Position numbers and translations under genes: made by a program | Part shown: in pieces, positions 3,712 through 22,755 of the stretch | Numbering within the stretch: the stretch's first letter is position 1 | Layout: each line of letters begins with the position of its first letter | NCBI RefSeq assembly: GCF_018866345.1 | Contig: NZ_CP076443.1 | Location: forward strand, 395,501-459,500 | Direction of reading: 5' to 3' | DNA length: 64,000 nucleotides | From: Gemella sp. zg-570 | GTDB lineage: Bacteria > Bacillota > Bacilli > Staphylococcales > Gemellaceae | The notes under the pieces: model-generated | What the model was told of the DNA's origin: nothing | Seen by the model: only the letters and a program-made list of their open reading frames with translations | The model's database searches: none

Positions 3712-4341
3712 ATGAATGAAAAATTTTTAAAGTATATAGAAAAAATAGATATGATTTGTCCATATCTAAAATCATCAATAGATAAAAATTTGTTGAATTG
3801 CACAGAGGTTGTTTTAAGTTCAGAGAATACTGATGAAAAATTATCTAAATACATATTCTATAAATCATTGATTTTAACAGAAAAATTTAGAAAAGCAAGA
3901 CATAATTTATCTGAGAGAGATATGATATTCTATACAAAAAATATAATTTTTGATGTGGACGATTTATCATATAGACAGTGGGAAAAGATAATATCTTGGT
4001 CACATTACACGTTAAAAGAGTTATTTTCATCTGAGCAGATTATGTTTGGGAAATTTTGGAAAGGGGAGGAAATTGTCAGCAAGATCACTAATAAAATGCT
4101 ACCAATTCCAGAAATTACGTTTATTTCGATAAGAACAGCTGTAAAAAGCAGGGATCCTAGATTATTGAGTAAAATCAAAGAATTTGCAAAAATAATAAAA
4201 GAAAGTAATTTCAAAAATAAAGTTGAATATCCATCTTATATTTTAAAAAATTATAAATTGTTAGAATTTGAAGACTTATGTGAAAGTGGGTACTACGAAT
4301 CATTAAAAAGAAAATTAACAGATAAGCTACTTAAAAAGTAG
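3712..4341 (+). CDS. Hypothetical 209-aa protein between a GRDP-like protein and an ABC exporter
   Basis: The frame begins 9 bases after the preceding gene, with a ribosome binding site (agggaaa) in the gap. The protein is soluble, rich in Lys, Ile and Glu and predicted mostly helical, with no signal peptide or membrane segment. Candidate landmarks are a YRQWEKI segment and a C-terminal RKLTDKLLKK. I do not recognise a family. Its fixed position between the GRDP-like gene and the exporter suggests that the three products act together. The last codons overlap a 12-bp hairpin. Confidence 0.6.
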   Translation: MNEKFLKYIEKIDMICPYLKSSIDKNLLNCTEVVLSSENTDEKLSKYIFYKSLILTEKFRKARHNLSERDMIFYTKNIIFDVDDLSYRQWEKIISWSHYTLKELFSSEQIMFGKFWKGEEIVSKITNKMLPIPEITFISIRTAVKSRDPRLLSKIKEFAKIIKESNFKNKVEYPSYILKNYKLLEFEDLCESGYYESLKRKLTDKLLKK

Positions 4342-4347
4342 CTTATC
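4321..4347 (+). terminator. Perfect 12-bp hairpin at a gene junction (attenuator-like)
   Basis: The arms 4321-4332 and 4336-4347 are perfectly complementary with a 3-nt loop, and the right arm runs into a short AT tract without a full T-run. The hairpin covers the stop codon of the 209-aa gene, 28 bases before the exporter ATG. It could attenuate transcription or protect the upstream mRNA. Confidence 0.5.
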
Positions 4348-4374
4348 TTAATTGTCATAATATGGAGGATTTAT

Positions 4375-5967
4375 ATGAAACAGTATTTTAAAATATTACG
4401 GTTAGATCAAAGCTTAACTCTAATATTCTCATTGATTAAAACGATATTGCTTCTGACTGCAGTAGGCTATATTCAGAAGATTTTCGATTCTATGATAAAT
4501 AAAGATTTTAGTAGTGGAATTTATAATTTAAAGATACTTGCAGTAATAACTACTGTTTATTTCGTATTTATTTTTATAGGTCAATACTTACTTAGGAAAT
4601 TATTCTTTCTGGGTAATTTTACTTTTATGAAATTTTTATATTCGCAAATTTTGAAGAAAGATTATTCCGATATGAAAGATGAATCATCAGGGCAAGTTCT
4701 ATCTAAAATTACCAATGACAGTAAAAGAATATCTGACTGGTATTCACAAGGGGTTGTACTTATGGTTATGCAGGCACTGGTATTTATAGTGACTGTTACT
4801 TATATGCTTGTGTACAATATTTATGTAACATTTGCTATGTTAGTATTAACTTTTTTGTGTTTCCTTGTTGTTCAAAATGTTAGTAAAAAAATGTCAGATG
4901 TTGTAAAGGAAGATCAAGCCTTAGTTGCCAGATCTAATCAATACATTTTAGAATCACTAAATTCATTATTAGATGTAAAACAATTAAGGAAAGAATCTTA
5001 TTTTATAAAAGGATTTAATTCTCTAATTGAAGAAAGAATAGATAAAAACAAAGCTGTTGCTAAGTATTTTTCTTTATATGTTGGCACATCAACGATAATA
5101 GCCTTTGTCTTGCCCATAATTTCAATTATTATTTCATCTTATTTTATAATTAATGACCAAATGACAGTAGGGTCAGCAGTAGCCTTGTACACATACTCAA
5201 GAATGTTAGACGAACCAGTGCGTTCAATTTCTATCCAAATAGGAATTTATGAAACTAGTAAAAAGATGGAAGAAAACTTTGTTGATTTGGTTTCTTATAA
5301 AACAAAAGAAAAAGAGAAATTAGAAGCTTTTGAAAAATTAAGTCTTGATATTAATTATTTTAAACATAATGAAGGATCTGTTAAGATTTTGGAAAATCTA
5401 AAAATAGAAGTAAACAGAGGCGACTTTGTTCTTCTTAAAGGAGCTAGTGGTGTAGGTAAATCTAGTCTTGTTGATATAATAATGAATAATGTAAAAACAA
5501 GTGATGAAACATTTGCAGGAAAACTAAGATGGAATGATAGTGAACTTGTTTTAAAGGATACTTATTCAAGAATTTTAAAAACAAGCCAATCTCCACTGAT
5601 ATTTGAAAAATCTCTAAGAGAAAATATTCTATTGGGTGATGATAATTTAGAAAGGAGACTTACAGAAGTACTTTATGTGGTTGGACTAACAGAACTAGTA
5701 GAAGAAAAAGGTCTTAATTATGAATTAACTAAAAATGGGGATAACTTATCAGGCGGACAAAAACAAAGATTATCTCTAGCAAGGATCTTAATCAGGAGAC
5801 CAGAGTTTTTAGTATTAGATGAACCTACTAGTGCTTTAAATGATAGTTTATCAAAAGAAATTGCCCAAAATATAAGTGACTACTGCACTAGATATCAAAT
5901 GACAACGTTAGTAGTTTCTCATTCAAGTGATTTTGATGAATTTGCAACTAAAGAGATACACTTATGA
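4375..5967 (+). CDS. ABC exporter half-transporter (permease-ATPase fusion)
   Basis: This 530-aa type I exporter has an N-terminal transmembrane domain (about residues 15-290, roughly six hydrophobic segments) fused to an ATPase domain. Visible ATPase motifs are Walker A GASGVGKSS near 356-364, the signature LSGGQKQR near 458, Walker B FLVLDEPTS near 480, and the switch histidine in VVSHS. There is no N-terminal C39 peptidase domain, so it does not cleave leaders itself. A ribosome binding site (ggagg) precedes the ATG. Being alone, it would act as a homodimer. Its neighbours suggest export of a peptide or small metabolite, but the substrate is unknown. Confidence 0.85.
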   Translation: MKQYFKILRLDQSLTLIFSLIKTILLLTAVGYIQKIFDSMINKDFSSGIYNLKILAVITTVYFVFIFIGQYLLRKLFFLGNFTFMKFLYSQILKKDYSDMKDESSGQVLSKITNDSKRISDWYSQGVVLMVMQALVFIVTVTYMLVYNIYVTFAMLVLTFLCFLVVQNVSKKMSDVVKEDQALVARSNQYILESLNSLLDVKQLRKESYFIKGFNSLIEERIDKNKAVAKYFSLYVGTSTIIAFVLPIISIIISSYFIINDQMTVGSAVALYTYSRMLDEPVRSISIQIGIYETSKKMEENFVDLVSYKTKEKEKLEAFEKLSLDINYFKHNEGSVKILENLKIEVNRGDFVLLKGASGVGKSSLVDIIMNNVKTSDETFAGKLRWNDSELVLKDTYSRILKTSQSPLIFEKSLRENILLGDDNLERRLTEVLYVVGLTELVEEKGLNYELTKNGDNLSGGQKQRLSLARILIRRPEFLVLDEPTSALNDSLSKEIAQNISDYCTRYQMTTLVVSHSSDFDEFATKEIHL

Positions 5968-6059
5968 TATGAGATAATAATTCGGAAATTAAAATAAACT
6001 TATTGTATAGGAAGAAATAATCTTTAAAAAGATTTTAGTTTAAGATTTTATAACAAGTA

Positions 6060-7184
6060 TATTATATCAAGTATTGAGTGCATATTTACTGGCATGCTGT
6101 AGTAATTTGTTATAGTAGAATTGTAATTACGATAATTGGTGCAAGTAAGTTAATTATGTGGGATATTTTTATCGACTTTAGTTGCTGGGATCTTAGACAA
6201 ATTTAATAAGTTATATTTTATAAAATTGTTAATTACTGCACGAATTTATTAATAGTAGGTATAATTTTATTATAAGGTAAATTTGAATTTACAGTAATGA
6301 TAAGTATAGTTATGTTTTTATCTGCTATTATAGGGAACTTACATGTACCAACCTTAGGAATCTATAATTTCTATTTTATATAAAAAAATGAAAAATTATA
6401 TAAAAATAATTCTCTAGCAATAACGTTTAGTCAAATATAAAGTATAGTGGTAATTTTTATATATGTAATATATATTACATTTTTAGATTTTAAACAAACC
6501 CTGCTTGCCTTACTATTTATAAGTATATTATTTTTGACATCTATTGTGAATTTAAAAATGAATGTAGTTACTTATACAAGTTCTAATTCTTCTATACAAA
6601 ATATTAAAGAAGGAATTTCATATATTTTTAAAAAAATTATAGTAAGAAGTATAGTTACCATTGGTCTATTAACAAACTTCTGTTTTTGGAGTATATTTTT
6701 ATTATTACCTAAAATTTCAGTAGATTCATTTTCATTTTTTAAAGGGAGTCACAGTTTCTTAGAATTAGCATTTTCTGTATTTGAAATAATATACTGTAGT
6801 ATATTTTATAAATATTTAGTTGTTGTAACTAATAAGTTTAAAATTTTTAATATTACCTTAATTTTACAAAGTTCAGCTTTATTTATCATAGGTTTAATGT
6901 TATTACTAGAAAATGTATATTTATCTTATCTAATAATAGTAGTATTATGGACAGTATATGTTAGATAAATAGACTGGTGTCTATCTCATATTTTAGTACT
7001 GTTCAAAAGAATATTCCTGAAAAAATTATGGCTATTGTTATTTGTGTAATCTTAAGTATATTTTTTAGTTAATCCTATAGTAGCAGTATTAAGAGGATAT
7101 ATTGTGAATTATGCAGTAATTTCTACAATAGTTATACTATTTTCATGTATAATATTAATCACAGATAGCGATAATAACTTTTAA
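6060..7184 (+). pseudogene. Degraded MFS transporter
   Basis: Fragments in several frames read as one major facilitator: ATLVAGIL-DKFNK (the loop 2-3 motif) near 6180, hydrophobic helices from 6290, an intact 173-aa piece at 6447-6968 with five or six helices, and a final helix pair ending near 7184. Frame changes and stops occur near 6110, 6250, 6380 and 6966. It follows the ABC exporter and may once have been the exporter or immunity pump of the same locus. Confidence 0.6.
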
Positions 7185-7765: not shown

Positions 7766-7820
7766 ATTATATAAAAATTTCGAGCGGTATTTAATCTATT
7801 GCTCGAAATTTTTATATAAT
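7766..7820. terminator. Bidirectional terminator with perfect 20-bp stem
   Basis: Positions 7766-7785 and 7801-7820 are perfect inverted copies (attatataaaaatttcgagc and its complement) around a 15-nt loop. The A/T runs at both outer ends make it a plausible terminator in both directions. It lies 76 bases beyond the stop codon of the minus-strand peptide operon and is the likely end of that transcript. Confidence 0.75.
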
Positions 7821-7895
7821 TGTAATGTTACTTTGATTTTTATTAGGGTTCTATTATTTTAATAACAATACAATAGATACTATAATAATTATAAT

Positions 7896-8069
7896 TTAAT
7901 AATCCATTGAAACTCTAGGTCTACTTCCTCCACCTTTAGCAAAAACAAATCCGTAATCTTTTTCTAAGTTTTCTGAATTTATTAATTGTAGTTCCAATTC
8001 ATCTAATTCTTCTAGGATTTCTTGAATTTCTATATTGTCAATATCTAAATTAAAAGTATTCTCATTCAT
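7896..8069 (-). CDS. Candidate RiPP precursor peptide ending in GGGSRPRVSMDY
   Basis: This 57-codon gene was found by reading the minus strand. It has a near-perfect ribosome binding site (aaaggaggtgat) just before the ATG at 8069. Residues 1-38 form a strongly acidic, helix-prone leader (EILEELDELELQLI, then NSENLEKD). The C-terminus switches to a small, basic, Gly-rich stretch: FAKGGGSRPRVSMDY, with Arg50 and Arg52. There is no cysteine and no signal peptide. It lies 32 bases after the last ABC permease gene and before the terminator at 7766-7820. It shares the terminal pattern R-x-S-x-x-Y with the other precursor at 15745. Leader/core layout and the arginase gene in the same operon make a modified peptide likely; the product is unknown. 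Confidence 0.65.
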   Translation of the reverse strand: MNENTFNLDIDNIEIQEILEELDELELQLINSENLEKDYGFVFAKGGGSRPRVSMDY

Positions 8070-8101
8070 TAAATATCACCTCCTTTTAGAACCCTGTTTT
8101 A

Positions 8102-8893
8102 CTATGAGCCTGTACTTTGATATCTTTTTAATCCAAAATTCCATATTGTTTTGTATACTAGTAGGACTAGCAGAAGACCAATAAACATTAATAGTAAGCT
8201 TTCTAAATCAAAAATATTTGTATAATTTATTAAATTTATCACTGGAAAATATCCTACAAATGAGAAAGGAATAATCACTAATACTACTTTTATAAAAAAT
8301 GGATAGATATTAATAGGGTAATTTGACAACTCATATAACTGCCATAAAATTGATTTTATCCCATCATTTGTTATTGAAAAGAAACTAAATGATACTAAGG
8401 CGAGATATATTGCTTCTCTTACTAAGACTGCAGATATTGTAAATAAAATAAACTTTATTAAAAATATGAAAGTTATATTAATATCTAAATTGTATAATGC
8501 AAAAACAATAATAATTATCCCTGTTATTAACTCAAATAAAGCTTCTTCATCTAATTGAAAAATAATAAATTGGTAAAGGATATTAAGAGGTCGTAATAAA
8601 AACAAATCTAACTCTCCTGTTTGTATCAAATAAGGAACTTCTAATGTTGTAACAAAGAAAAATTCCCATAAGGCTGCTGTCAAAGTTAAAAAACCATACA
8701 TAAATAATATTTGATATAAAGAAAATCCACCAATTATATCTGTATAATTTAGAGTAATAAGTAATATAAATAAGGTAGTAAAACTATCAAGTAAGTATCC
8801 TAAATTCCCTACTAAAAAATCTAGCTTATAACTTAGTATTCTTTTTGTATCCATTTTTAGAAATTCTAAATATAAATATAAGTGCTTCTTCAT
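8102..8893 (-). CDS. ABC-2 type exporter permease (DUF990-like)
   Basis: A 263-aa membrane protein with about six hydrophobic helices. The N-terminal YLYLEFLKMDTKRILSYKLDF and the internal GELDLFLLRPLN segment are typical of the ABC-2 family 6 (DUF990) permeases that work in pairs with a second permease and one ATPase. It begins one base after the stop of the previous permease gene. The three genes at 8102-10644 form a complete exporter, presumably for the product of this operon, or for self-protection. Confidence 0.8.
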   Translation of the reverse strand: MKKHLYLYLEFLKMDTKRILSYKLDFLVGNLGYLLDSFTTLFILLITLNYTDIIGGFSLYQILFMYGFLTLTAALWEFFFVTTLEVPYLIQTGELDLFLLRPLNILYQFIIFQLDEEALFELITGIIIIVFALYNLDINITFIFLIKFILFTISAVLVREAIYLALVSFSFFSITNDGIKSILWQLYELSNYPINIYPFFIKVVLVIIPFSFVGYFPVINLINYTNIFDLESLLLMFIGLLLVLLVYKTIWNFGLKRYQSTGS

Positions 8894-8894
8894 T

Positions 8895-9683
8895 TTAACC
8901 TCCCATTATATCTAATTTTTTAAACACATAATATGATAATTTTTTATAAATTATCCATAATATAATAATCCAAAAAATTTGCATAATAAACATAAATAAT
9001 ATTTTGCTATAATTATTATCATATACAATCATAGAAACAGGAGTATACATTATGGAATAAAATGGTGTAAATTCTGATATTTTTAATAACAATTTTGGAT
9101 ATAAGTCTATAGGTAATAGTCCTCCACCAAAAACAATAAGTAGGGCATTTACTAACTCAGAAATACCATTTATTTTTATAAATACTGTTGATAAAAGGGC
9201 AATAATATAGCCTAATAAAAATGCAATAAGATAACTTAGTAAATACATTAAAAGAAAAAGTATCAATCTTTCAAAAGAAAAAATTTTAAAAATTATATTG
9301 TAAAAAAACACCACATAGATAACTAAAATAGGTAATACTTGAAATTTTAATTTATAAAAAAAGTTACCAAAAACAATAAAAAATATTATGATTATCAATC
9401 CATCAGGTCTGTTTAAATAATTAATAATATTACCTTTTAAAATTTTTTCAGATACAAAATTTGTAGCTGATTTTATAGGTAATAATATTTGTAAAATAAT
9501 AGCTAGCAAAACATAAGTTATTATTTCATCAACATCTATAGAATTATATTTTTTTACATAAGTCCATACACTATATTGTATTAATATCATAGTTAAAGAC
9601 GCTATTATTTGCATTATTGTATTAAACTTATATTGACGTAAAGTTTTATATTGATATAAAGAATATCCAAAAAATCTATTCAT
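8895..9683 (-). CDS. ABC-2 type exporter permease (partner subunit)
   Basis: A 262-aa polytopic membrane protein with about six helices, beginning MNRFFGYSLYQYKTLRQYKF. The start at 9683 is chosen because aggtgag lies just upstream; an in-frame GTG at 9692 is possible. The start overlaps the end of the ATPase gene, implying translational coupling. GGGLLPIDLYP followed by PFYSIMYTP in the C-terminal half is typical of the first permease of DUF990-type exporters. It forms a heterodimer with the product of 8102-8893. Confidence 0.8.
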   Translation of the reverse strand: MNRFFGYSLYQYKTLRQYKFNTIMQIIASLTMILIQYSVWTYVKKYNSIDVDEIITYVLLAIILQILLPIKSATNFVSEKILKGNIINYLNRPDGLIIIIFFIVFGNFFYKLKFQVLPILVIYVVFFYNIIFKIFSFERLILFLLMYLLSYLIAFLLGYIIALLSTVFIKINGISELVNALLIVFGGGLLPIDLYPKLLLKISEFTPFYSIMYTPVSMIVYDNNYSKILFMFIMQIFWIIILWIIYKKLSYYVFKKLDIMGG

Positions 9684-10644
9684 AGCTCTCACCTAGCTTG
9701 TCTTTGACAAGTAATACCTCTTGAAGATTTAACTTTAATACCTCTGTTTGTGTAACTATACTTTCATTTGGTATTAGTTTTAATAAATCTATTACATTAA
9801 ATTTGCTTTCATCAAAAACAAATTCTTTTGAATCAATATTTGTACGCAGTAAAAATATACCTTCTTTTTTTAAATCATATAGATTTTCTCCGTACATTTT
9901 TATTTTTTTATATTTATTAAAAATATCTTTGAAGCTTTTAACTGCTCCATCATAAGTTATTTGCCCATCACTTATTAAAATCATTCTTTTACAAGTTTTT
10001 TCTATATCTGAAATTTCGTGAGTTGTTAATATTATAGTAGTATTGTATTGTTTATTTATTTTTAAAATGAGTTCAATAATTATTCTCTTTGTTTCTATAT
10101 CTAAACCTATGGTAGGTTCATCTAAAAAAACTAATTTTGGTTTGTGTATTATGCTGGCTATAAATTCTCCACGCATTCTTTGCCCTAAGGAAAGTTGTCT
10201 AACTGGCTGATATAAGTATTCGGTTACATTTAATTCTTTTATCAAATAATTTAGCCATTCTTCATCTTCTAAATCATAAATTTTTGATAGGTATTTAAAG
10301 GAATCTATCAGGGGTAAATCCCACCATAAATGAGATTTTTGCCCAAAGAGTACCCCAATATTTTTAGCATTACTTTGTCTATTGACAAAAGGGTCTTTAC
10401 CTAAAACTTTTATACTTCCTTTTGTAGCAGTGAGTATACCTAATAATAATTTTATAGTTGTAGATTTACCTGCACCATTGTTTCCTATATATCCTACAAT
10501 TTCTCCTTCCGATATTTTGAAAGTTATATTTTTTAAAGCATTTTTAATTTTCTTTTCAGTTTTTAAAAAACTAACTCTGTTTTTAATTATATAGTCTTTA
10601 CTAAGACTATCAACACTTACTATTTCCTTCATAATTTGCCTCAT
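9676..10644 (-). CDS. ABC-2 type exporter ATPase
   Basis: A 322-aa ATPase with Walker A (GNNGAGKST), Q-loop (FGQKSHLWWDL), signature LSLGQRMRGE, Walker B (LVFLDEPTIGLD) and the H-loop (TTHE). The W-W-DLP segment after the Q-loop and the LSLGQR signature are typical of ATPases partnering DUF990/ABC-2 permeases. The ATG overlaps the stop of the decarboxylase frame (atga). A second in-frame ATG at 10632 has a better-placed ribosome binding site and may be the true start. It energises the two permeases downstream. Confidence 0.85.
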   Translation of the reverse strand: MRQIMKEIVSVDSLSKDYIIKNRVSFLKTEKKIKNALKNITFKISEGEIVGYIGNNGAGKSTTIKLLLGILTATKGSIKVLGKDPFVNRQSNAKNIGVLFGQKSHLWWDLPLIDSFKYLSKIYDLEDEEWLNYLIKELNVTEYLYQPVRQLSLGQRMRGEFIASIIHKPKLVFLDEPTIGLDIETKRIIIELILKINKQYNTTIILTTHEISDIEKTCKRMILISDGQITYDGAVKSFKDIFNKYKKIKMYGENLYDLKKEGIFLLRTNIDSKEFVFDESKFNVIDLLKLIPNESIVTQTEVLKLNLQEVLLVKDKLGESYE

Positions 10645-11712
10645 ATTTGTAATATTTTTTTGTCGATAATTAAGTATTCTTTATATTTTTTATAAAGATG
10701 AAAATTTCTAAAATTTGAAATAGTATAACTACCAAATCCAGGAAAAATAATTATATCTCCTTTATTTTTTGTTTCAAGTGAAAAATTTCCAAAACAATCC
10801 CCATAATACATAGTATTACCCATAACTTCATATTTTTCTTTCTTTATTTTAGGATTCAATATTATAGGTTTTTCTATTCCCCAAGGTGATGAAACCCATA
10901 TAGATGAATCAACAAAAAGTATATTTTTATTATTAACAATTTTTTTATTAACTACAGACGTGAGTAAAAATCCACAGTATTTCAATAGAGCATCTCCAGG
11001 TTCAAAAATTAATTTAATTTTTTTAAATACCGGATCACTATTCAAATTAATTAAAATTTTTAAAAACTTACTCCTATTTTTATATAATGTTAATAAATCT
11101 CCACCCATATTTATTTCTTTTATTGTAGGATACTTTTCTATTAAATTTTTAGATATTTTAATTCTATTTAGAAATTCTTCTACATTAAAATTATTAGAGT
11201 GATAATGTATTCGTATGATTTTTTTATTTTTTTCTTAATATATTCAAAATCATGTTTATTGCTTATAGGTATGCCATAATTTTCATACTTAGAGTTATCT
11301 AAACTTATTCTAATTCCAATATTTTCATTATTAATGTAGTTTATTTGTTCTATGTTATCTATATCAATTATATTGTTTTTTGAAATTTCTCTAATATCAT
11401 TTATACTTAAACAAGGAGACGTTATTGATATTTTATCAAAATTTAATTTTCTTACTAAACTATATTCTTCATAACTTGCAACATCACCCCTAAATCAAGT
11501 TTTTTTAAAATTTTTAATATTTCTATGTTATTATTAGCTTTTACAGCGAAATATAAATCTGATCTATAGAATAAAGATAAATCTTTTTTAAAATTTTCTA
11601 TAGTTTTAATTAAAAAATTGTAATCATAACAAACACAAGGAGTTTTTAAATCTTTAATTATATCAAAGAAATTACGATCAAAAGTTGGCAAAATAAATTT
11701 ACTAAGTTGCAT
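10641..11712 (-). pseudogene. Fold type III PLP decarboxylase (ornithine/DAP decarboxylase-like) with two frameshifts
   Basis: Read across three frames this is one protein of about 357 residues. Frame 1 starts at 11712 and has TPCVCYDYNFL and YFAVKANNN, where the lysine is the PLP-binding residue of fold III decarboxylases. After a shift at the CCCC run 11487-11490 it continues GDVASYEEYSLV and RISLDNSKYENYGIP. After a second shift in an A-run at about 11218-11226 it continues IRIHYHSNN, INMGGDLL, FEPGDALL, GDCFGN and FPGFGSYT. These are the family's glycine-rich, EPGR-like and active-site C-terminal motifs. Both shifts are in homopolymers, so they may be real decay, reversible slippage or sequencing error. 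The intact enzyme would decarboxylate ornithine, lysine or a related amino acid, which fits the adjacent arginase. Confidence 0.75.
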
Positions 11713-11725
11713 AAATTTCTTCTTA

Positions 11726-12976
11726 CTACATATTATTTATTAATTCTATAATTTTTTCTAAATTTTTATTACAGTAGCCTACAGCTATTTTTAAAAAGCA
11801 TTTCCTGTTGTTAATGTCATATATAATTTTTTCAATCCTAGTTTTGTGAAATCCAAAACTAGAACCATAATCAATTAAGTAATCTTCTTGTGCTGGGTTA
11901 TCAATAATTATTTTTATTAATTTATCATATTCACTCTCAATATCTATATTTAATTGAATTAAAATAAAAGGTGATTTTGAATGTTTAAAAATAGTGTTTT
12001 TTAAGACAGGGTGGACTATTTTTTTGAATTTTATGTTATTAATACGTTTCGCGACATAACTATTGTTTTCGTGAATTTTTTTTATATATTTTTCCAAATA
12101 AATACTATGGAATAAAAAGTTGTTAGTAAATATTCTTAATGATGATAAATTTAAATTTGTACCATATAGCATTCTATTTTCAACAACTGTATTGGTATAT
12201 TTTTCAAATTCATTTTTAATTTTTTCATCTCGGAAATTACTGATTAAAATAGCCATTCCAGAACTTGTTAATTCTAACCCAAATTGATATAACTTAAGTA
12301 GAGATTGAACAATGATACAAAAGATATTTTCTTTATTCAATATCTTTTTTATTTTATCAATATCTATATTGAAATGGCTAATTAATGTTATATCAATAAT
12401 AATAATTTTTATTTTTTTATTATTAGAATAGTCATTAAATAATTTTATAATATGATAAATATCAAAAATATTCATGTTTAAAGAATAAGTAACTGGTTCA
12501 ATAAATAAAATATCTATATCATTAGAAATTATTTCATTTACTAAGTCTAATTCATTGTTCGCAGACTTATATATTACAGGAAAGGTTAATTTTTTTAAAA
12601 ATTTATCTGTTTCAAAATATCCTATAGTACTTAATATAGTTATTTTAGTTTTATTATATCCCTCTATGTATGTTGTTATTAAAGTTGTTATTGCAGACAT
12701 ACCTGAATTAAATAAAAGTATTTTATCTTTATTATCAATTAATGAATTATATTTTTCCTCAATATTATTATATTTAATATTTCTTTCGTATACAAAAGAA
12801 TCTCCTAAAATTTTATTTTGATAATAAGTGCTTTGTGAGGTGTATTTTGGAGATTTATATTTGAAATACAAATCTAAAAATAGGCTATCTTTAATCAATT
12901 CTTCTTTAAAATCTAAAAAAGAATTAATTTTATTTTTTCTTACATTCGAGTTATGTACTAAATTCTTTAGTTCCAA
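11726..12976 (-). CDS. Cys/Met-metabolism-type PLP-dependent enzyme
   Basis: A 416-aa fold type I PLP enzyme. Family landmarks are YERN near 63 (substrate/phosphate loop), FNSGMSAITTL at 89-99 (like the SGMAAI phosphate-binding turn of cystathionine gamma-synthase relatives), Asp195 in IIIIDITLI as pyridine partner, and VQSLLKLYQFG with Lys228 as the probable Schiff-base lysine. The rest is diverged, so the reaction (gamma/beta elimination or replacement) cannot be named. The gene follows the arginase with a 4-base gap and precedes the decarboxylase by 13 bases, so it belongs to the same transcription unit. Confidence 0.65.
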   Translation of the reverse strand: MELKNLVHNSNVRKNKINSFLDFKEELIKDSLFLDLYFKYKSPKYTSQSTYYQNKILGDSFVYERNIKYNNIEEKYNSLIDNKDKILLFNSGMSAITTLITTYIEGYNKTKITILSTIGYFETDKFLKKLTFPVIYKSANNELDLVNEIISNDIDILFIEPVTYSLNMNIFDIYHIIKLFNDYSNNKKIKIIIIDITLISHFNIDIDKIKKILNKENIFCIIVQSLLKLYQFGLELTSSGMAILISNFRDEKIKNEFEKYTNTVVENRMLYGTNLNLSSLRIFTNNFLFHSIYLEKYIKKIHENNSYVAKRINNIKFKKIVHPVLKNTIFKHSKSPFILIQLNIDIESEYDKLIKIIIDNPAQEDYLIDYGSSFGFHKTRIEKIIYDINNRKCFLKIAVGYCNKNLEKIIELINNM

Positions 12977-12980
12977 TATA

Positions 12981-13835
12981 TCACCTCAATACTTTAATTA
13001 AATCCAATATTATTTTGCATATATTTAAACTATCCATTCTATTTTTATCATTTAATTCTACAATATCTAAAGCAATAATTTTTATATTATATTCCATAAA
13101 TTTATCAATAATATAATTAATTTCTCTATATGTGAACCCTCCTGGGATTGGCGTTCCAGTTGATGTTATAAATTCTGTAGATAGGCAATCTACATCAAAG
13201 GTTAAATAGTATCCTATGTTCTTATCCATAGATTTTAAAATTTTATCTATATTTAATAAAACATCTTTTGTATTAAAACTACGAATCTTATTATGCTTAT
13301 ATATTTTAGAGTACTCATCTATTCCAAATTGATATAAAAATTTAATTTCTTTATTTCCTATAATCCAATTTAAAAAATTACCGTGGTGTAGATATTCTCT
13401 CCAATTTTGATTTGAATTTAATTCTGTTTGAAAATCTTGATGAGCATCAAAATGAATAATTCCAAATTCTTTTTTAGAATTTATAACACCTTTAATTGTA
13501 GAATACGAAATAGAATGATCTCCTCCTAAAATTATGGGTATTTTATTAGATGAAATTAAATACTCAACAATATTAGATGCAAAATCAAACTCTTTACCAT
13601 TACTCTTATAAATTCTTCTATTTATATCCCCAATATCATAAGCTTCTAATGGTAATGATACAAAATTATTATTAAAATAATCATACAAAGAACTACTATA
13701 TTCTCTTAATAATACTGGGGCATTTCTTGAACCAGCATAATTTGAAGAACCTAAATCATAAGGAAATCCAAAAAATACTATCGCCTTATTGTTTATATTA
13801 ATATCTTGTATATTTATCTTTCTGCTATTAAACAT
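12981..13835 (-). CDS. Arginase-family ureohydrolase, candidate peptide arginase
   Basis: A 284-aa ureohydrolase with all metal-binding motifs: LGGDHS at 103-108, FDAHQD at 129-134, HHGN at 150-153, FDVDC at 213-217 and the E260 region (LDIVEL). Such enzymes hydrolyse a guanidino group, releasing urea from arginine, agmatine or peptidyl arginine. Free-arginine arginases are usually about 300 aa, so length does not discriminate. The gene is the first clear one of a minus-strand operon ending in a peptide with two arginines near its C-terminus, and a second arginase sits in the divergent operon. Conversion of peptidyl arginine to ornithine, as known for the landornamide pathway, is therefore the favoured inference. 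Free ornithine production for the adjacent decarboxylase is the alternative. Confidence 0.75.
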   Translation of the reverse strand: MFNSRKINIQDININNKAIVFFGFPYDLGSSNYAGSRNAPVLLREYSSSLYDYFNNNFVSLPLEAYDIGDINRRIYKSNGKEFDFASNIVEYLISSNKIPIILGGDHSISYSTIKGVINSKKEFGIIHFDAHQDFQTELNSNQNWREYLHHGNFLNWIIGNKEIKFLYQFGIDEYSKIYKHNKIRSFNTKDVLLNIDKILKSMDKNIGYYLTFDVDCLSTEFITSTGTPIPGGFTYREINYIIDKFMEYNIKIIALDIVELNDKNRMDSLNICKIILDLIKVLR

Positions 13836-13872
13836 ACTTATATTAGTATTAATAACAGTTTCTTGCTTAAAA

Positions 13873-14058
13873 TTAATATTTTTTTCTAATTGATAAAATA
13901 TTATTTATTTTGTCTTGTATTAACATATTGTTTTTAGAGTAATGTAACATCACTTTGTATAATTTATAACTTATTTCTATTTTCATATTAGAATTAATGA
14001 AGAAAATGTAATATAAATCAGATTTTTTATTTTTAAATATAACAAAATTATTGTTCGT
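13873..14058 (-). CDS. Possible small gene at the head of the minus-strand operon, non-standard start
   Basis: A 61-codon frame runs to a stop at 13873-13875, with a good ribosome binding site (aagaggtg) five bases upstream of its first codon. That codon is ACG rather than ATG, so the gene is either dead by a start mutation or poorly translated. The sequence (FVIFKNKKSDLYYIFFINSN, then an amphipathic helix ending NNILSIRKKY) has the composition of a real small protein. No family is recognised. Confidence 0.3.
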   Translation of the reverse strand, partial: TNNNFVIFKNKKSDLYYIFFINSNMKIEISYKLYKVMLHYSKNNMLIQDKINNILSIRKKY

Positions 14059-14363
14059 ATAATCACCTCTTTTTTATAATTAATATGGTATTAATGAGTA
14101 TATGTATTAAATTATTATTCTTTAAAAATTAAGATTTAGACAAAATAGCTATTCTAATTTAGTTTAATTATATATACATTATTATTTATTAGTATTTTTA
14201 AACAATAAATCCTACTTAATTATAATATATTATATCGGAAAAAATAAGTATAGTCAAAGCCTATTTATATTAGATGAAATAATTTAATTATTTACATATA
14301 ATTTTAATATTATTAAAATACAAAAATATTTATTATTTATACTGTATCTAATTTATTTTATAA
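14059..14363. other. AT-rich intergenic region between divergent operons
   Basis: About 300 bases of very AT-rich DNA without a gene. It should contain the promoter of the minus-strand operon. Only a weak candidate is visible on the minus strand (TTGTCT near 14131, with a poor -10 box). The IS30 copy at 14364 has landed in this intergenic space and may have separated or changed the original divergent control region. Confidence 0.4.
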
Positions 14364-15425
14364 AGTAAATTATATAATTAAGTTAGCCAGTGATACAAAA
14401 AAAAGCATCTCATAGGATATACTTTTAGTAACTACAAAAAAAGGATACCAAGAGATGCAAGAACATTATAACACAAAAGGCAAACACATTACAGAAAAAG
14501 AGCGTTATTTAATTGAAAAATGGAAAAAAGAAGGAAAAAGTAACCGAGAAATCGCTAGATTATTAGGCAAAAATCACCAAACTATTAATAACGAAATTAA
14601 ACGCGGACTGATTGATTTATCTTTTCATGGTGGCACTAAAGAATACTCTGCTCAAAAAGCACAGAATGATTATAATCATTTACGTTTAGCCGTAGGTAGA
14701 ACGGATACGTGGACTGTAGAAAAAGAAAATGTAATCAGAGAAAAAATTATGGATAAATATTCCCCTGAAATGATTAGTCAATTACCAGATATGCCGTCTT
14801 TTACGACAATTTACACATGGATATATAAAGGATGGATAGCAGGTATTTCACGTAAACATCTGATTTACCCTAGAAAAACTAAACCAATAAAATCAAATGA
14901 AAAACGACCACCAAGAAAAACGAATGCCCTCTCTATTGAACAGCGACCACAAGAGATTAACGAACGAAAAGAAATTGGGCATTTTGAAATTGATTTAGTC
15001 ATTTTAAACAAGAAACGTGGACAACAGTTATTGACATTAACAGACAGAAAAACACGCTATGAAATCATTCGTCTTATTCCTGATAAAACGGCCCAAAGTG
15101 TGAATACCGCTTTGACGTCTATTCAACAAGACTATTTAATTCGCTCTTTAACAGCTGATAATGGTTCTGAATTTTTAAGACTAGACGAAGCCATCACTTG
15201 TCCTATTTATTACGCACATCCGTTTTCTTCTTATGAACGAGGTAGTAACGAAAATGCAAATCGATTGATTAGACGATGGTTCCCAAAAGGCACAACAACC
15301 GTTACTCCTAACGAAGTAACGGCTGTTGAACAATGGATAAATCGTTATCCACGTAAATTATTTAATTATGTATGTCCTTATGACTTGCCTGAGGTGGCTA
15401 ACTTACTATTGTAATTTGCGATCTG
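14364..15425 (+). mobile_element. IS30-family insertion sequence, copy 1
   Basis: The element spans 1062 bp, bounded by comparison with copy 2 (27478-28538). Imperfect terminal inverted repeats are visible: aaattatataattaagttagcca at 14367-14389 against tggctaacttactattgtaattt at 15395-15417. A 3-bp repeat (taa) flanks the outermost shared bases, as expected for IS30-type insertion. Its GC content is clearly higher than that of its surroundings. A hairpin (gcatctc/gagatgc) precedes the transposase start and could block read-through transcription. Confidence 0.85.
14455..15414 (+). CDS. IS30-family transposase
   Basis: A 319-aa transposase with an N-terminal helix-turn-helix (ERYLIEKWKKEGKSNREIARLLGKNHQTI read in parts), followed by the IS30-type DDE core: D in GHFEIDLV, D in LTADNGSEF, and E in ERGSNENANRLIRRWFPKGT. 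The C-terminus runs into the right inverted repeat. Compared with copy 2 it differs at only four residues (Glu/Lys16, Asp/His, Pro/Leu and His/Tyr), so both are recent and probably active or recently active. Confidence 0.95.
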   Translation: MQEHYNTKGKHITEKERYLIEKWKKEGKSNREIARLLGKNHQTINNEIKRGLIDLSFHGGTKEYSAQKAQNDYNHLRLAVGRTDTWTVEKENVIREKIMDKYSPEMISQLPDMPSFTTIYTWIYKGWIAGISRKHLIYPRKTKPIKSNEKRPPRKTNALSIEQRPQEINERKEIGHFEIDLVILNKKRGQQLLTLTDRKTRYEIIRLIPDKTAQSVNTALTSIQQDYLIRSLTADNGSEFLRLDEAITCPIYYAHPFSSYERGSNENANRLIRRWFPKGTTTVTPNEVTAVEQWINRYPRKLFNYVCPYDLPEVANLLL

Positions 15426-15744: not shown

Positions 15745-15876
15745 ATGAAAAAAGTTAATAAAAATAATGTTATAAACTCTACTAAAGATAAAAAAGAAAA
15801 TCTTATTATAAAAAAGGTTAGCGTTTCAAAACCTGTAGTTGCACAATCAAAATGCAGATATTCTAGTGCGTATTAA
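15745..15876 (+). CDS. RiPP precursor peptide with core ending in SKCRYSSAY
   Basis: A 43-aa peptide, first gene of the operon, with promoter and strong ribosome binding site. The Lys/Asn-rich leader (about residues 1-30) has no signal peptide. The tail VVAQSKCRYSSAY holds the only cysteine (Cys37), one arginine (Arg38), serines 35, 40 and 41, and a terminal Tyr43. Cys and Ser/Thr are the substrates of YcaO cyclodehydratases and LanB-type dehydratases, and Arg of a peptide arginase. All three enzymes are encoded directly downstream. The last six residues follow R-x-S-x-x-Y, as in the peptide at 7896-8069. A hairpin follows 20 bases after the stop. Confidence 0.8.
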   Translation: MKKVNKNNVINSTKDKKENLIIKKVSVSKPVVAQSKCRYSSAY

Positions 15877-15896
15877 AATAGTGTAGGGTTATTAGA

Positions 15897-15926
15897 AAGA
15901 GTGTGAAGAATTATCTTTGCACTCTT
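15897..15926 (+). terminator. Hairpin between precursor and modification genes (partial terminator)
   Basis: The arms aagagtg (15897-15903) and cactctt (15920-15926) pair perfectly, and inner aag/ctt can extend the stem. The hairpin is followed by an AT-rich, imperfect T-tract. Its position suggests attenuation: abundant precursor message, with read-through into the enzyme genes, as is common in bacteriocin operons. Confidence 0.65.
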
Positions 15927-15960
15927 ATTTTAAAATATAAAATGGAGGTAGGAAGTATTT

Positions 15961-17754
15961 ATGCAGGAAATAGAAGAAGTGTATTTAAATAATAAAGGAA
16001 AAATGTTTTGCAAATTATTTCAAGATTATTATGAAATACTAGATGATTCAATTTTTGAATATGAATTTCCTAAAATTAATGAAATTAATTTTCTTACAAT
16101 AAATAATATTAGAATACCAGTTATATCTATTAGAGATTATAGCACAGCTGTTGAATTTGTATCACAGTCTAATAATTTTGATAATTATTCTATTTGTATT
16201 TTAGAAACATACAATATATTATATATGATAAAACTTGAGGATTTAGAATCCGTAGTAATTAGGATAGTGGAAAATATTGACTATTCTATTTTGGAATTAT
16301 TTTCAAATAATTATGGAATAATAGCATATCATTCTTTTTTTAATAAACTTGAAGAAAATAATCAAGAAATAATTAAATTTACAAATTATAAATTGTTAAA
16401 TAATAAGTCTGTTGTATACAGAAAACATACAGGGAATATAGAGTATGTAGATGTAGTAAAATACCCTAATAAGAAAACTGTAGCATTTTCGGATGCAGAT
16501 CTAATTTCAGAAAATTATGAATTAGGAGATACACGATATTTAAGTGTCCATGATTCAAATAATTTAATTAGTTCCATAAGTGAATTATCTCCTGTTTATA
16601 AGGTGGAAAGTTTAGACGAATATAGTGATTTAAATTTTAAAATATATAAATCTTATTCGTCAAGAAAGGATATTGAAAATAAATTTTCTGTTCATGGTGG
16701 AAAGGGGAGTACAGATGTACAATCATTTTTTAGTGCGGTAGGAGAAGGAATAGAGAGATATTCTGCCAGATTATTTTTGTACGATAATAAATATATAATA
16801 ACAGATAGTTATAAAAATTTAAAGAGACTTGGGAGAAGAATTCTTAATCCTATAGAATTAAAATTAGATGAAAATTTTATAAATGAATATTCTCAATGTA
16901 AAAATTTTGAGTGGATTGAAGGATACTGTTTAACGAATAAGGAAAAAATTTTTTTACCAGCAAATAGTGTATTCTTTCCATATGATCGCCCTAAAGAACT
17001 TATGTTACATTCACAATCAACCACTGGAATTTCTTCAGAAGTAACATTTTCTAGAGCTATTTTGCAAGGTTTATTGGAAGTCTTAGAAAGAGATTCCTAT
17101 TCGATAGTACATAAAGCAAGGATGAAAGTTAAGGTAATTGAAATTAATGAATGTGATGATAAATCTATAAAAAGAATATTAAAATTTTTGAATGAAAAAG
17201 ATATAAACATTCATCTAACGTTAATTAGCCAATTTTCTTTTGTTCATGTTGTGCACTGTACATTGGAATCTAAAAAATATCCTATATATACACATGGTTC
17301 AGGGGCTAATTTGAGTATTCTTGTAGCAATAAAAAGAAGTATTTTTGAAGCAATACAGTTACGAGTTTCACAAAAAGAATTAGAGTATTTAATTAAAGAT
17401 AACATAGAGCATGAAGAAATACCTTCAGTTTTATGGGGAATGGGAATTAAAGAATATGTTTCACCCTTTTTAATTAATATAGATAGTGAAAAAATAAAAT
17501 TTACTAGTATAAATGATTTATCTACTGGGAATATAATATTAGATTTACAATTTTTAGTAGATAATTTAAAAAGAGAAAGCTACAATGTTTATTGTGCGAA
17601 TTTAACCCGAGATGATGTCCTTTTATATACAGCAAGAGTAATAGTCCCGGGATTACAAGATATAGATAATTATAATACTAAAGTAACAAAAAGATTAAAA
17701 AATATACTGAGAGAAAAAGGAAAGTTAATTAATACATTAAGAATGTTTAGTTAA
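15961..17754 (+). CDS. YcaO-domain RiPP cyclodehydratase-like enzyme
   Basis: A 597-aa protein. Residues 1-200 are an unassigned N-terminal region (possible leader-recognition or E1-like remnant); residues about 210-597 are a YcaO domain. Visible ATP/Mg motifs are GEGIERYSAR at 261-270, AILQGLLEVLERDSY at 366-380 and IFEAIQLR at 461-468, with a late ARVIVPGLQD at 558-567. YcaO enzymes phosphorylate the backbone amide to make azolines, thioamides or amidines. The C-terminus (INTLRMFS) lacks the PxPxP end common in azoline-forming YcaO proteins, and no separate ThiF/E1-like partner is seen in the operon. The exact chemistry is therefore open. A ribosome binding site (tggaggtagg) lies upstream. 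The arginase gene starts 10 bases downstream. Confidence 0.85.
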   Translation: MQEIEEVYLNNKGKMFCKLFQDYYEILDDSIFEYEFPKINEINFLTINNIRIPVISIRDYSTAVEFVSQSNNFDNYSICILETYNILYMIKLEDLESVVIRIVENIDYSILELFSNNYGIIAYHSFFNKLEENNQEIIKFTNYKLLNNKSVVYRKHTGNIEYVDVVKYPNKKTVAFSDADLISENYELGDTRYLSVHDSNNLISSISELSPVYKVESLDEYSDLNFKIYKSYSSRKDIENKFSVHGGKGSTDVQSFFSAVGEGIERYSARLFLYDNKYIITDSYKNLKRLGRRILNPIELKLDENFINEYSQCKNFEWIEGYCLTNKEKIFLPANSVFFPYDRPKELMLHSQSTTGISSEVTFSRAILQGLLEVLERDSYSIVHKARMKVKVIEINECDDKSIKRILKFLNEKDINIHLTLISQFSFVHVVHCTLESKKYPIYTHGSGANLSILVAIKRSIFEAIQLRVSQKELEYLIKDNIEHEEIPSVLWGMGIKEYVSPFLINIDSEKIKFTSINDLSTGNIILDLQFLVDNLKRESYNVYCANLTRDDVLLYTARVIVPGLQDIDNYNTKVTKRLKNILREKGKLINTLRMFS

Positions 17755-17764
17755 GGATTTAATT

Positions 17765-18868
17765 ATGAAATATTTTATTAATAATTACATTAAAAGAGAA
17801 GAGAATGGAATAAGAATTTCAGAAATTTATTTAGAAATGAATAAAGAAAGCGCAGATTTTTTATATAAGAATAGAGGTAAATATATTGATATTTTATTTG
17901 GCAATGATGATATAGAGATATTAATTAATTATAGTTTTATAAGCTTATTTCCAAATTATTATAATTTGATTCCTAATACAAGTTATTCTTTATTTGGGAT
18001 TGATAGTAGATGTTTACTAGAAGATTTGAATGATGTAGAGAGTAGAGAGAAGAAGGTTGGAGTTTTTGAATTTCCTTATTTTCAAGGGACAATAAAGCAT
18101 AATTACAATAGAGATTCTATTTCTATACTAAAGGATATGTCAAATAAATTTCCAAATCCAAATATAAGTATAAGAGAAAATAAAGATTTAGATGTCGAAT
18201 GTTCATATATCTATGATTACGGGTTCCTTAATATAAATTTTAATAGTAAAATGATAAATGAAATTGAATCTATATCTTATAAAATATACTCTTCAAATAA
18301 TAATATATTCCCTTTGTTTTTGGGAGGGGATCATACTATAACATACCCGATTGTCAAAGGAATAAATAATAGTGGTTATAAGTCATTAAGGTTATTGTAT
18401 TTTGATGCACATTTAGATATATCAGAACTAGAAGAATTACACAATGGAAATGTAATGAAAAAATTAAAAGAAAGCTTTAGTGGAGATATAGAGTTGATAA
18501 ATTTTGGTGCGAGGAGTCCATTATTTATAGAAGAATATAACACTTCAAGAGACTTGACAAAATTTACTGATATAGAAAACTTAATAACTTACTTAAAAAA
18601 GAATAAGAATATACCATTATATATTTCGATTGATTTGGATTATTTAGATCCTGTTTATAATCCGGGGGTTACTTATCCTGTACCAAATGGTTCAACTGTA
18701 AATAACTTATTGGAAATTATTAGGAAAATATTTGATTTAGATGTGAAAGTTTTAGGAATTGATATTGTAGAATATAATTCCAGCAATGATTTGTCTCTTG
18801 TAGGGGCCAACACATCTGCATATTTAATCTACAATTTATTAAAAGATATGGCAAAATTTTATAAATAA
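17765..18868 (+). CDS. Arginase-family enzyme with N-terminal extension, candidate peptide arginase
   Basis: A 367-aa protein. About 110 N-terminal residues of unknown fold precede a ureohydrolase domain with intact metal motifs: LGGDHT near 188-193, FDAHLD near 212-217, the histidine in ELHNGN, SIDLDYLDP near 291-299 and GIDIVEYN. The extension is unusual for free-arginine arginases and could bind the leader peptide. The gene lies between YcaO and LanB-like genes, so peptidyl Arg38 of the precursor is the obvious candidate substrate, giving ornithine. Peptide arginases are known from landornamide biosynthesis; here the partner enzymes differ. Agmatinase-like activity on a small molecule cannot be excluded. 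Confidence 0.75.
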   Translation: MKYFINNYIKREENGIRISEIYLEMNKESADFLYKNRGKYIDILFGNDDIEILINYSFISLFPNYYNLIPNTSYSLFGIDSRCLLEDLNDVESREKKVGVFEFPYFQGTIKHNYNRDSISILKDMSNKFPNPNISIRENKDLDVECSYIYDYGFLNINFNSKMINEIESISYKIYSSNNNIFPLFLGGDHTITYPIVKGINNSGYKSLRLLYFDAHLDISELEELHNGNVMKKLKESFSGDIELINFGARSPLFIEEYNTSRDLTKFTDIENLITYLKKNKNIPLYISIDLDYLDPVYNPGVTYPVPNGSTVNNLLEIIRKIFDLDVKVLGIDIVEYNSSNDLSLVGANTSAYLIYNLLKDMAKFYK

Positions 18869-18881
18869 GTAAGGAGAATAT

Positions 18882-21299: not shown

Positions 21300-21556
21300 T
21301 AAATAGATATTTGAGAAATGGACGATTAACTGTTATCCCCAAAAAAGAGAATGTAAAAATAATTATATTTTCATATTTATTGGGTGAATTACAAAAAGAA
21401 AATGAAATGTTTTCTGAAAAGGAGCTCAATAAATTTTTGAAAAAATATTATGATGACTATGCTATTTTGAGAAGATATATGATTGACTATGGTTTTTTAA
21501 AGAGAGATAATTATGGAGAAAAGTATACAATAAATAAAAAAGTTAAAGGAGAATAG
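21284..21556 (+). CDS. DUF2087-domain small protein
   Basis: A 90-aa protein overlapping the LanB-like gene by 16 bases, with taaggaggaaaa as ribosome binding site. The sequence follows the DUF2087 pattern: GRLTVIPKKE near residue 13, SEKELNKFLKKYYDDYAILRRYMIDYGFL, and a final basic/aromatic YT stretch. This winged-helix-like domain occurs alone or fused to regulators. Embedded in the modification operon it could be an autoregulator, or a peptide-binding accessory protein; the sequence alone does not decide. Confidence 0.65.
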   Translation: MENEIINRYLRNGRLTVIPKKENVKIIIFSYLLGELQKENEMFSEKELNKFLKKYYDDYAILRRYMIDYGFLKRDNYGEKYTINKKVKGE

Positions 21557-21561
21557 TATTG

Positions 21562-22755
21562 ATGATTAAAAATATTACTAATAAATATTTTATCTTAACT
21601 AGTGGTCTTGCTATGGGAATAGCTATGTTTAACCCAATATTATATATTTTTTTATTAAATCAAGGTTTTACCTACTCACAATTAGGGATATATTTAGCAT
21701 TATTTTTCTTATTTTCATTTTTAACAGAGGTACCTTGTGGAGTAATAACGGATGTAATAGGAGTAAAAAAGACATTACTATTAAGTTGTATTTTTAGAGT
21801 GATCGGATTAATTTTTTTATTAACCCAAAATTTTTACTTACTGTTAATTTCAGCATTATTTTCAGCAATTGCAGAATCTTTTCAATCTGGAACTTTACAA
21901 AGTTGGATTGTAAATAGTTTGGATGAAATAGGAAAAAAGGAAGAAATTTCAAAAATTTTTTCAAGAAGTATGATGATAACTTCGTCATTAACGATGATTG
22001 TTGGTTTTGTGAGTTCTAAAATTTTGTTTAAGCATAATCAAAGTGCGTCACTGATAGCTAGTATTATTATTTTTTCTTTAGTATTTTTAATTGTTTTAAG
22101 TGCATTCCCTAGAACATTTTTAAATAGAGGAAAATTAGATATAATAAGTATTATAAAAAATTCATCAGAGCATTTAAAAAGTACAGTTTTAAAATTATCA
22201 ATTTTGAAAAGTTCAACTTTGCTAATTTTATTGCTATTAATGCCTTCCATTTTAGATGCTGGTCCATCAAATCAATGGCAATCTATTTTTTATATACCTA
22301 ACCTAGATTTTTTAAATGGGTATATATGGGTGATAATTTGTATTTCAGGAATGTTAGGTAGCTTTTTATCAGAAAAAATAGGGAAAGTCGAGAGTAATAA
22401 GTTGTTGTTTACTACTTTACTCATAATGAATAGCATATTAGTAATTGTCATTTATTTTATTAATTTACCAATATTAAAATTTTTAATTTTTATAGTTTAT
22501 ATTATTTTCTTTACGGTACTTTCTATACGATCAAGTGTGATTCTACACGAAGAAATAATATTATATAATAAAAGTAGAACGACCTTAGTTTCTATATTTT
22601 ACGCAGTAGAATCTTTAATAATGAGTGCAGCAGTTTTCCTTAATGGAGTATTATCTGATACTTTTGAAGTAACATTTGTTTGGTTAATATTCGCTGTATT
22701 TGTTTTACTGATACTTATGATTATTTTTGGTGTAAAACGATGGAAAAACAATTAA
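21562..22755 (+). CDS. MFS exporter
   Basis: About 397 aa with 11-12 hydrophobic helices. The loop between helices 2 and 3 carries EVPCGVITDVIGVKKTLLLS, the classic MFS motif A region. The start at 21562 is preceded by aaaggagaa; a TTG one codon earlier is equally possible. It lies two to five bases after the DUF2087 gene and overlaps the next gene. The likely role is export of the mature peptide or self-immunity; the ABC-2 exporter of the divergent operon may do the same for the other peptide. Confidence 0.8.
   Translation: MIKNITNKYFILTSGLAMGIAMFNPILYIFLLNQGFTYSQLGIYLALFFLFSFLTEVPCGVITDVIGVKKTLLLSCIFRVIGLIFLLTQNFYLLLISALFSAIAESFQSGTLQSWIVNSLDEIGKKEEISKIFSRSMMITSSLTMIVGFVSSKILFKHNQSASLIASIIIFSLVFLIVLSAFPRTFLNRGKLDIISIIKNSSEHLKSTVLKLSILKSSTLLILLLLMPSILDAGPSNQWQSIFYIPNLDFLNGYIWVIICISGMLGSFLSEKIGKVESNKLLFTTLLIMNSILVIVIYFINLPILKFLIFIVYIIFFTVLSIRSSVILHEEIILYNKSRTTLVSIFYAVESLIMSAAVFLNGVLSDTFEVTFVWLIFAVFVLLILMIIFGVKRWKNN

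Follow-up and report, generated by a model that had tools for sequence, protein, structure and literature searches.

We describe an uncharacterised family of bacterial gene clusters whose product appears to be a small modified peptide, in which arginine is probably converted to ornithine and then given an aminopropyl arm; the last two steps of this route we infer by analogy with characterised enzymes. One member lies on the minus strand of the window, as we call the 64,000-nt stretch of Gemella sp. zg-570 DNA that was analysed. It is a seven-gene operon in which an arginase is followed by a Cys/Met-type pyridoxal phosphate (PLP) enzyme, a fold-III decarboxylase, three ABC-2 genes and a 57-aa peptide (Table 1). 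The genes, their coordinates and their order had been called in the original prediction, and all were borne out by ORF and Pfam checks. An IS30-like element flanks the operon (14455-15414), and PADLOC gave no defence-system match.

Table 1. Features of the operon and its immediate surroundings, in window coordinates
Feature	Position	Strand	Evidence and remarks
Precursor peptide, 57 aa, core GFVFAKGGGSRPRVSMDY	7896..8069	-	Conserved in three Gemellaceae; GGSR also in M. sciuri and three other Bacilli genomes; strong Shine-Dalgarno
ABC-2 membrane subunit, PF06182	8102..8893	-	E 4.7e-38; dN/dS 0.08-0.13
ABC-2 membrane subunit, PF01061-like	8895..9692	-	E 5.7e-5, below Pfam cut-off; dN/dS 0.10-0.23
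ABC transporter ATPase	9676..10644	-	E 6.2e-26
Fold-III PLP decarboxylase, LysA/NspC/MccE-N related, frameshifted	10641..11712	-	Orn/DAP decarboxylase domains; Gemella MAG orthologue intact
Cys/Met (cystathionine gamma-synthase) family PLP enzyme, distinct subfamily YxR...SGM..I...YFET...K...SFGF	11726..12976	-	PF01053, E 6.5e-7
Arginase (PF00491 ureohydrolase) catalytic domain; GGDH, DxHxD, DxD intact	12981..13835	-	E 1e-47
Degenerate remnant of arginase N-terminal (RRE-like) domain	13836..14058	-	ACG start codon 14058-14056; 4-nt insertion ~13879
Promoter-like site TTGACT-17-TATAAT, upstream of ancestral arginase start	14229..14257	-	Consensus match only; count of such sites in region near chance
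Perfect 16-bp inverted repeat, terminator-like, after peptide gene	7770..7816	-	Loop too long for terminator scan
Upstream arm AGGGTTCTA of inverted repeat enclosing peptide gene	8087..8095	-	p ~0.02
Downstream arm TAGAACCCT of inverted repeat enclosing peptide gene	7845..7853	-	Pairs with arm 8087..8095

Conservation of the peptide gene and its motif

Within the Gemellaceae, the cluster was found in three of 15 genomes: the window strain, Gemella cuniculi DSM 15828 and an uncultured Gemella MAG. Gene order is identical in all three, each of which has the terminal peptide; the G. cuniculi and MAG peptides are 61-63% identical to that of the window, with 11 of 13 positions invariant among the three across the stretch GFVFxxGGGSRPR. 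Every gene tested is under purifying selection (dN/dS between these orthologues of 0.27-0.34 for the peptide and 0.08-0.23 for the other operon genes tested). Conservation of the cluster and its peptide in Gemellaceae is more than chance.

A search with the PLP enzyme led to a cluster on a Mammaliicoccus sciuri plasmid, where the order is decarboxylase, arginase, second decarboxylase, PLP enzyme, ABC ATPase, ABC-2 protein and GNAT, and where the precursor is a 27-aa ORF, MTENIRNATPSISLDLDLMGGSRPRLK, directly upstream of the operon. Whole-genome profile searches over Bacilli, which replaced a Gemella-profile contig scan that used two exact patterns and found only Gemella, gave three further arginase-type clusters in another Bacilli family. 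Their precursors are ..IALDLSVLGGSRIDKDRL (G213), ..VNLDLTILGGSRPRVN (G622) and two tandem copies of ..IKLDLTILGGSRPRGDLQQF (G610). These clusters and that of M. sciuri share the PLP subfamily of the window and have precursor genes of 27-45 aa containing GGSR, and the four precursors align as LDL..(L/M)GGSR. Incidence is sporadic, at 3/15 in the family, 4/398 in the class (E 1e-12) and 1/398 in the phylum; the phylum-wide search made no addition outside Bacilli, a near-identity search of plasmids gave no match, and no cluster was found in viral contigs. Because trees of the PLP enzyme and the decarboxylase do not resolve the deep branches, we make no claim of a single origin for the arginase-type clusters. 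Precursors of 27-57 aa, at least one of them unannotated in its record (the M. sciuri plasmid), explain why the family was overlooked.

GGSR occurs in seven of 2606 small ORFs drawn from 15 loci, and six of the seven are the ORF beside an arginase/PLP enzyme/decarboxylase set; the remaining one, at about 28706 in the window, is unrelated. (The G. cuniculi precursor was not counted, as its ORF, extended by an upstream start, exceeds 70 aa.) Precursor matches lay at the clusters and nowhere else in the genomes that gave them. Arginase is present in all seven clusters with GGSR and absent from all four without it, a distribution with a Fisher probability of 1/330 for a motif that was named after the first two lineages had been seen. 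Collapsing the clusters by hand to four versus four lineages, with four independent arginase-positive lineages sampled, gives 1/70 (hand calculation).

A small peptide gene lies beside all seven arginase/PLP enzyme/decarboxylase clusters found; the trio without such a gene, named in the original prediction as a sign of ordinary polyamine metabolism, was not seen among them. The comparative genomics suggested there as a check also placed a small gene beside the PLP enzyme/decarboxylase pair lacking arginase, in four of four readable flanks. The arrangement is the one expected of a RiPP cluster, with a short precursor gene that adjoins the maturases and is conserved across species, and the idea of a dedicated RiPP-like peptide-modification operon with an overlooked small gene is supported by both peptide conservation and co-occurrence. 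Judged from these sequences, the small gene most likely encodes the arginase substrate.

On plasmids of Enterococcus faecalis and Lactococcus lactis, the pair stands with ThiF enzymes rather than arginase, and the precursors are ..SVERT and ..MRVRT. Arginase is also absent from G569, which combines the pair with a pyridine nucleotide-disulphide oxidoreductase-like protein and an MFS transporter (precursor ..GGSINLVDKVY), and from G633, which has an MFS transporter and a flavoprotein nearby (precursor ..PFMLIPDKVC). These two GGSR-less precursors end DKV(Y/C), and the core offers Lys where neither arginase nor ThiF is present. In two other relatives (G124 and G060), which retain the pair or what remains of it, an intron or IS element masks the precursor. 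A review (PMC12250964) mentions that ThiF-type RiPP genes of Enterococcus and Streptococcus have decarboxylases and PLP-dependent enzymes nearby, so the ThiF branch has already been seen in genome mining; the combination of arginase, PLP enzyme, decarboxylase and peptide was not described in the literature searched.

The three putative modifying enzymes

All six Mn ligands are present in the window arginase, which scores below the NCBIfam equivalog cut-offs for agmatinase (116.7 versus 174.3) and RocF (95.8 versus 227.6). It matches PF00491 only, the PF12640 domain of the OspR family being absent; one relative matched PF12640 at E 0.11, below the cut-off. The arginases of M. sciuri (N-terminal domain intact), G622 and G610 carry an N-terminal extension of 80-100 aa, and it is the pattern of this domain that leads us to call it RRE-like. 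Pfam and NCBIfam gave no RRE match for the N-terminus, only a sub-threshold winged-helix match in Pfam, and an RRE profile comparison with ThiF N-termini gave no match. AlphaFold models of the PLP enzyme (pLDDT 42.6) and the arginase (51.8) were not used because of their low confidence with alignments of 3 rows. The co-occurrence of arginase with GGSR makes the peptide its most likely target, and we think it highly probable that the enzyme would act at the peptide level. KgrD is a PF00491 arginase that acts on a RiPP (PMC12703449).

The window PLP enzyme scores 28.7 against PF01053 (cut-off 27), some relatives falling below the cut-off, and keeps the PLP Lys, YxR and the active-site Tyr. Across the subfamily, YxR, SGM..I, Y(F)ET, the PLP Lys and SFGF are invariant. 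Similarity of the enzyme to known gamma-replacement enzymes is weak (E 1e-7), and its C-terminal carboxylate-binding motif departs from that of the family. LolC belongs to the same Cys/Met family. "PLP lyase", the term first applied to the window enzyme, is probably the wrong reaction type; the reaction of the enzyme is not fixed by sequence. One further candidate (G405) is an ordinary cystathionine gamma-synthase and was used as an outgroup.

A gamma-family PLP enzyme and a PLP decarboxylase are paired in every intact cluster. Matches of the decarboxylase include MccE of E. coli microcin C7 plasmids (E ~1e-7), with lysA, NspC and N-citrylornithine decarboxylase matching as well or better; it scores far below the lysA and nspC equivalog cut-offs. 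Each of the four arginase-type clusters outside Gemellaceae has two decarboxylases, and a simple one-decarboxylase scheme leaves the second of these unaccounted for. The d1 decarboxylases have Leu at the ODC Cys360 position, where d2 and other relatives mostly have Cys, so that d1 may act as a partner subunit or catalyse a different reaction.

Proposed chemistry and its alternatives

In the scheme that we propose, the 57-aa precursor would have an acidic amphipathic leader, and its C-terminal core would follow a GG(G) motif. The arginase would turn the Arg of GGSR into ornithine by hydrolysis, and may do the same to the second Arg of SRPR, exposing a primary amine. From a gamma-activated C4 amino acid (SAM or O-acylhomoserine), the PLP enzyme would make a vinylglycine-PLP intermediate and add a 3-amino-3-carboxypropyl arm to the ornithine amine. 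The fold-III decarboxylase would then remove the carboxylate to leave N-(3-aminopropyl)ornithine, a polyamine-like side chain, and the ABC-2 transporter is the predicted exporter of the product.

The order of these steps turns on the decarboxylase. PLP decarboxylases need a free alpha-amino acid group and do not react when the alpha-amine is in an amide bond. As ornithine inside a peptide has an amide-bound alpha-amine, a fold-III PLP decarboxylase cannot decarboxylate that residue, and the sequence of arginine, ornithine and decarboxylation implied by the original prediction finds no support if the arginase acts on a peptide residue. More likely, the PLP enzyme acts before the decarboxylase and provides the amino-acid side arm that the latter works on. 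A RiPP operon with arginase, gamma-replacement, decarboxylation and ABC-2 export strikes us as an evenly balanced proposition, and aminopropylation of the peptide, for which both later steps are modelled on known enzymes, could go either way. Acetyltransferases (GNAT, AAC(3)) or an APH-like kinase lie near the clusters of six relatives and would fit self-protection against an amine-bearing toxin; we lean towards a bioactive product. The full reading, a RiPP class that rebuilds Arg into spermidine-like N-(3-aminopropyl)ornithine, with variants in which Lys or a nucleotide phosphate serves as acceptor, is put forward tentatively, as somewhat short of an even chance.

The peptide could instead be the substrate of the arginase while the PLP enzyme and decarboxylase do other chemistry, for instance making a free diamine or amino acid that is then coupled to the peptide or, in the case of the PLP enzyme, carrying out an elimination on Ser. 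Such chemistry, which we consider unlikely, would suit the conserved Ser of GGSR, which adjoins the Arg, the diversity of gamma-family PLP enzymes and the usual preference of fold-III decarboxylases for free amino acids. However, the arginase-type clusters contain no ATP-grasp, NRPS or ThiF coupling enzyme, and the PLP enzyme/decarboxylase pair also accompanies GGSR-less precursors and ThiF-type clusters, which favours an amine or phosphate over Ser as acceptor. Ordinary polyamine or arginine metabolism (Arg to ornithine to putrescine) with an exporter and an incidental small ORF is very improbable. Although arginase and ODC-like folds are the classical polyamine enzymes, and agmatinase is the best NCBIfam match of the arginase, the enzymes fall far below the agmatinase, arginase, lysA and nspC equivalog cut-offs, the peptide is under purifying selection in Gemellaceae, GGSR recurs in Bacilli beyond that family, and the clusters are sporadic, unlike primary metabolism. 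Peptide conservation and the low family scores are our grounds for rejecting it.

A separate question is the state of the window copy. The enzyme genes reported there are present, but the decarboxylase and the arginase N-terminus are broken, which had been missed. Compared with two orthologues, the decarboxylase has single-base deletions at about 11486 and 11232, leaving pieces of 85 aa and 155 aa and an out-of-frame middle. The arginase ORF is a truncated remnant: the sequence upstream of it is homologous to the N-terminal extension of orthologues, the ancestral start is now ACG, and the insertion breaks the frame (Table 1). A stop codon in the arginase N-terminus is the sole lesion in the Gemella MAG, and four genes have lesions in G. 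cuniculi, those for the PLP enzyme, decarboxylase and ATPase among them. In the three Gemellaceae, the arginase N-terminal domain was therefore damaged in different ways; as all three lost it while the catalytic domain is still under purifying selection, it may be dispensable there. On this sequence evidence the pathway in the window strain is probably no longer complete. We find it rather likely that the window cluster is a decaying relic whose surviving exporter, perhaps with the PLP enzyme, serves immunity or nothing, given the two decarboxylase frameshifts, the lost start and frameshift of the arginase N-terminus, the broken G. cuniculi genes and the IS30-like element alongside. Against decay, open reading frames with low dN/dS persist for the peptide, the PLP enzyme, the catalytic domain of the arginase and all three ABC genes, and the decarboxylase deletions, located in or beside homopolymer runs, could be errors of assembly. 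A relic in the window is compatible with the RiPP explanation for the family.

Relation to known systems

If aminopropylation of the peptide is true, a polyamine-like side chain would be placed in a ribosomal peptide by PLP gamma-replacement and decarboxylation, cofactor chemistry for which the precedents to date are small molecules and a single nucleotide-peptide antibiotic. The family can be tested by co-expression, since intact clusters occur on a plasmid and in other Bacilli genomes, and the arginase/GGSR rule provides an internal control within one enzyme family.

As in the OspR/FlmR systems (PF12640) and in enteropeptin, whose KgrD is likewise a PF00491 protein (PMC12703449), an arginase stands here beside a short precursor with a core Arg. 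Unlike in those systems, there is no thiomorpholine or radical-SAM step, and the arginase, which is not of PF12640, is followed by a gamma-family PLP enzyme and a decarboxylase. For Mur24 of muraymycin, gamma-substitution onto an amine with PLP as cofactor has been shown (PMC10491745), and for LolC of loline it has been proposed (PMC10367076, PMC4274035); both enzymes serve small-molecule pathways, LolC being fungal and acting on free proline and Mur24 being ACC-synthase-like. NspC and the N-citrylornithine decarboxylase FslC are sequence relatives that decarboxylate amino acids carried on larger scaffolds, but the window decarboxylase lies far below equivalog scores, and neither enzyme is linked to peptides. 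The MccD/MccE precedent comes from microcin C, in which the fold-III decarboxylase MccE trims an aminocarboxypropyl arm to aminopropyl (PMC10491745). Like microcin C, the present clusters place a short precursor next to a decarboxylase related to the MccE N-domain; relatives have GNAT nearby, and two relatives have ThiF. In contrast to microcin C, a gamma-family PLP enzyme replaces the SAM-dependent MccD, the arginase-type clusters do without ThiF, and the proposed acceptor is ornithine rather than phosphate.

Inverted repeats around precursor genes

In three lineages (the window, the Bacilli genome G622 and Mammaliicoccus sciuri), the whole precursor gene is flanked by inverted repeats, with arms of 9 bp, 26 nt and 11 bp, respectively. 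These repeats could pair in the transcript as a stem that encloses the ORF, or they could mark the boundary of a cassette.

Surroundings of the main operon

A second RiPP-like cluster adjoins the main operon, from which it is separated by an IS30-like transposase ORF. Its arginase lies next to YcaO, an unusual pairing. Also close to the two clusters (3712-5967) is a DUF6875 protein gene; after it comes an ABC transporter gene whose product joins the membrane and ATPase domains in one fused protein. Judged from ORFs only, positions 6010-6970 (+) hold remnants resembling a disrupted membrane transporter gene.

Features in the window and in related loci
Feature	Location	Strand or note
IS30-like transposase, 319 aa	window 14455-15414	assigned from own sequence
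ORF of equal length, 319 aa	window 27489-28448	opposite to 14455-15414
Inverted-repeat arms, precursor	window 8087-8095 and 7845-7853	
Repeats enclosing precursor	L031 (G622) ~2468-2566	
Repeats enclosing precursor	L012 (M. sciuri) ~5329-5412	
43-aa peptide, C-terminal SKCRYSSAY	within window 15745-23765	+
YcaO (PF02624)	same	+
Further arginase (PF00491), N-terminal extension	same	+
Lant_dehydr_C protein	same	+
DUF2087	same	+
MFS	same	+
Flavoprotein (PF02441, LanD-like fold)	L033 11092-11703	adjoins G633 cluster

Variants among relatives

In G610, which carries an arginase-type relative, two precursor genes with identical cores stand in tandem (L032 13519-13825). The precursor of the arginase-free G633 cluster ends in Cys (DKVC), and a PF02441 flavoprotein gene adjoins that cluster; these features suggest a further variant with C-terminal oxidative decarboxylation.
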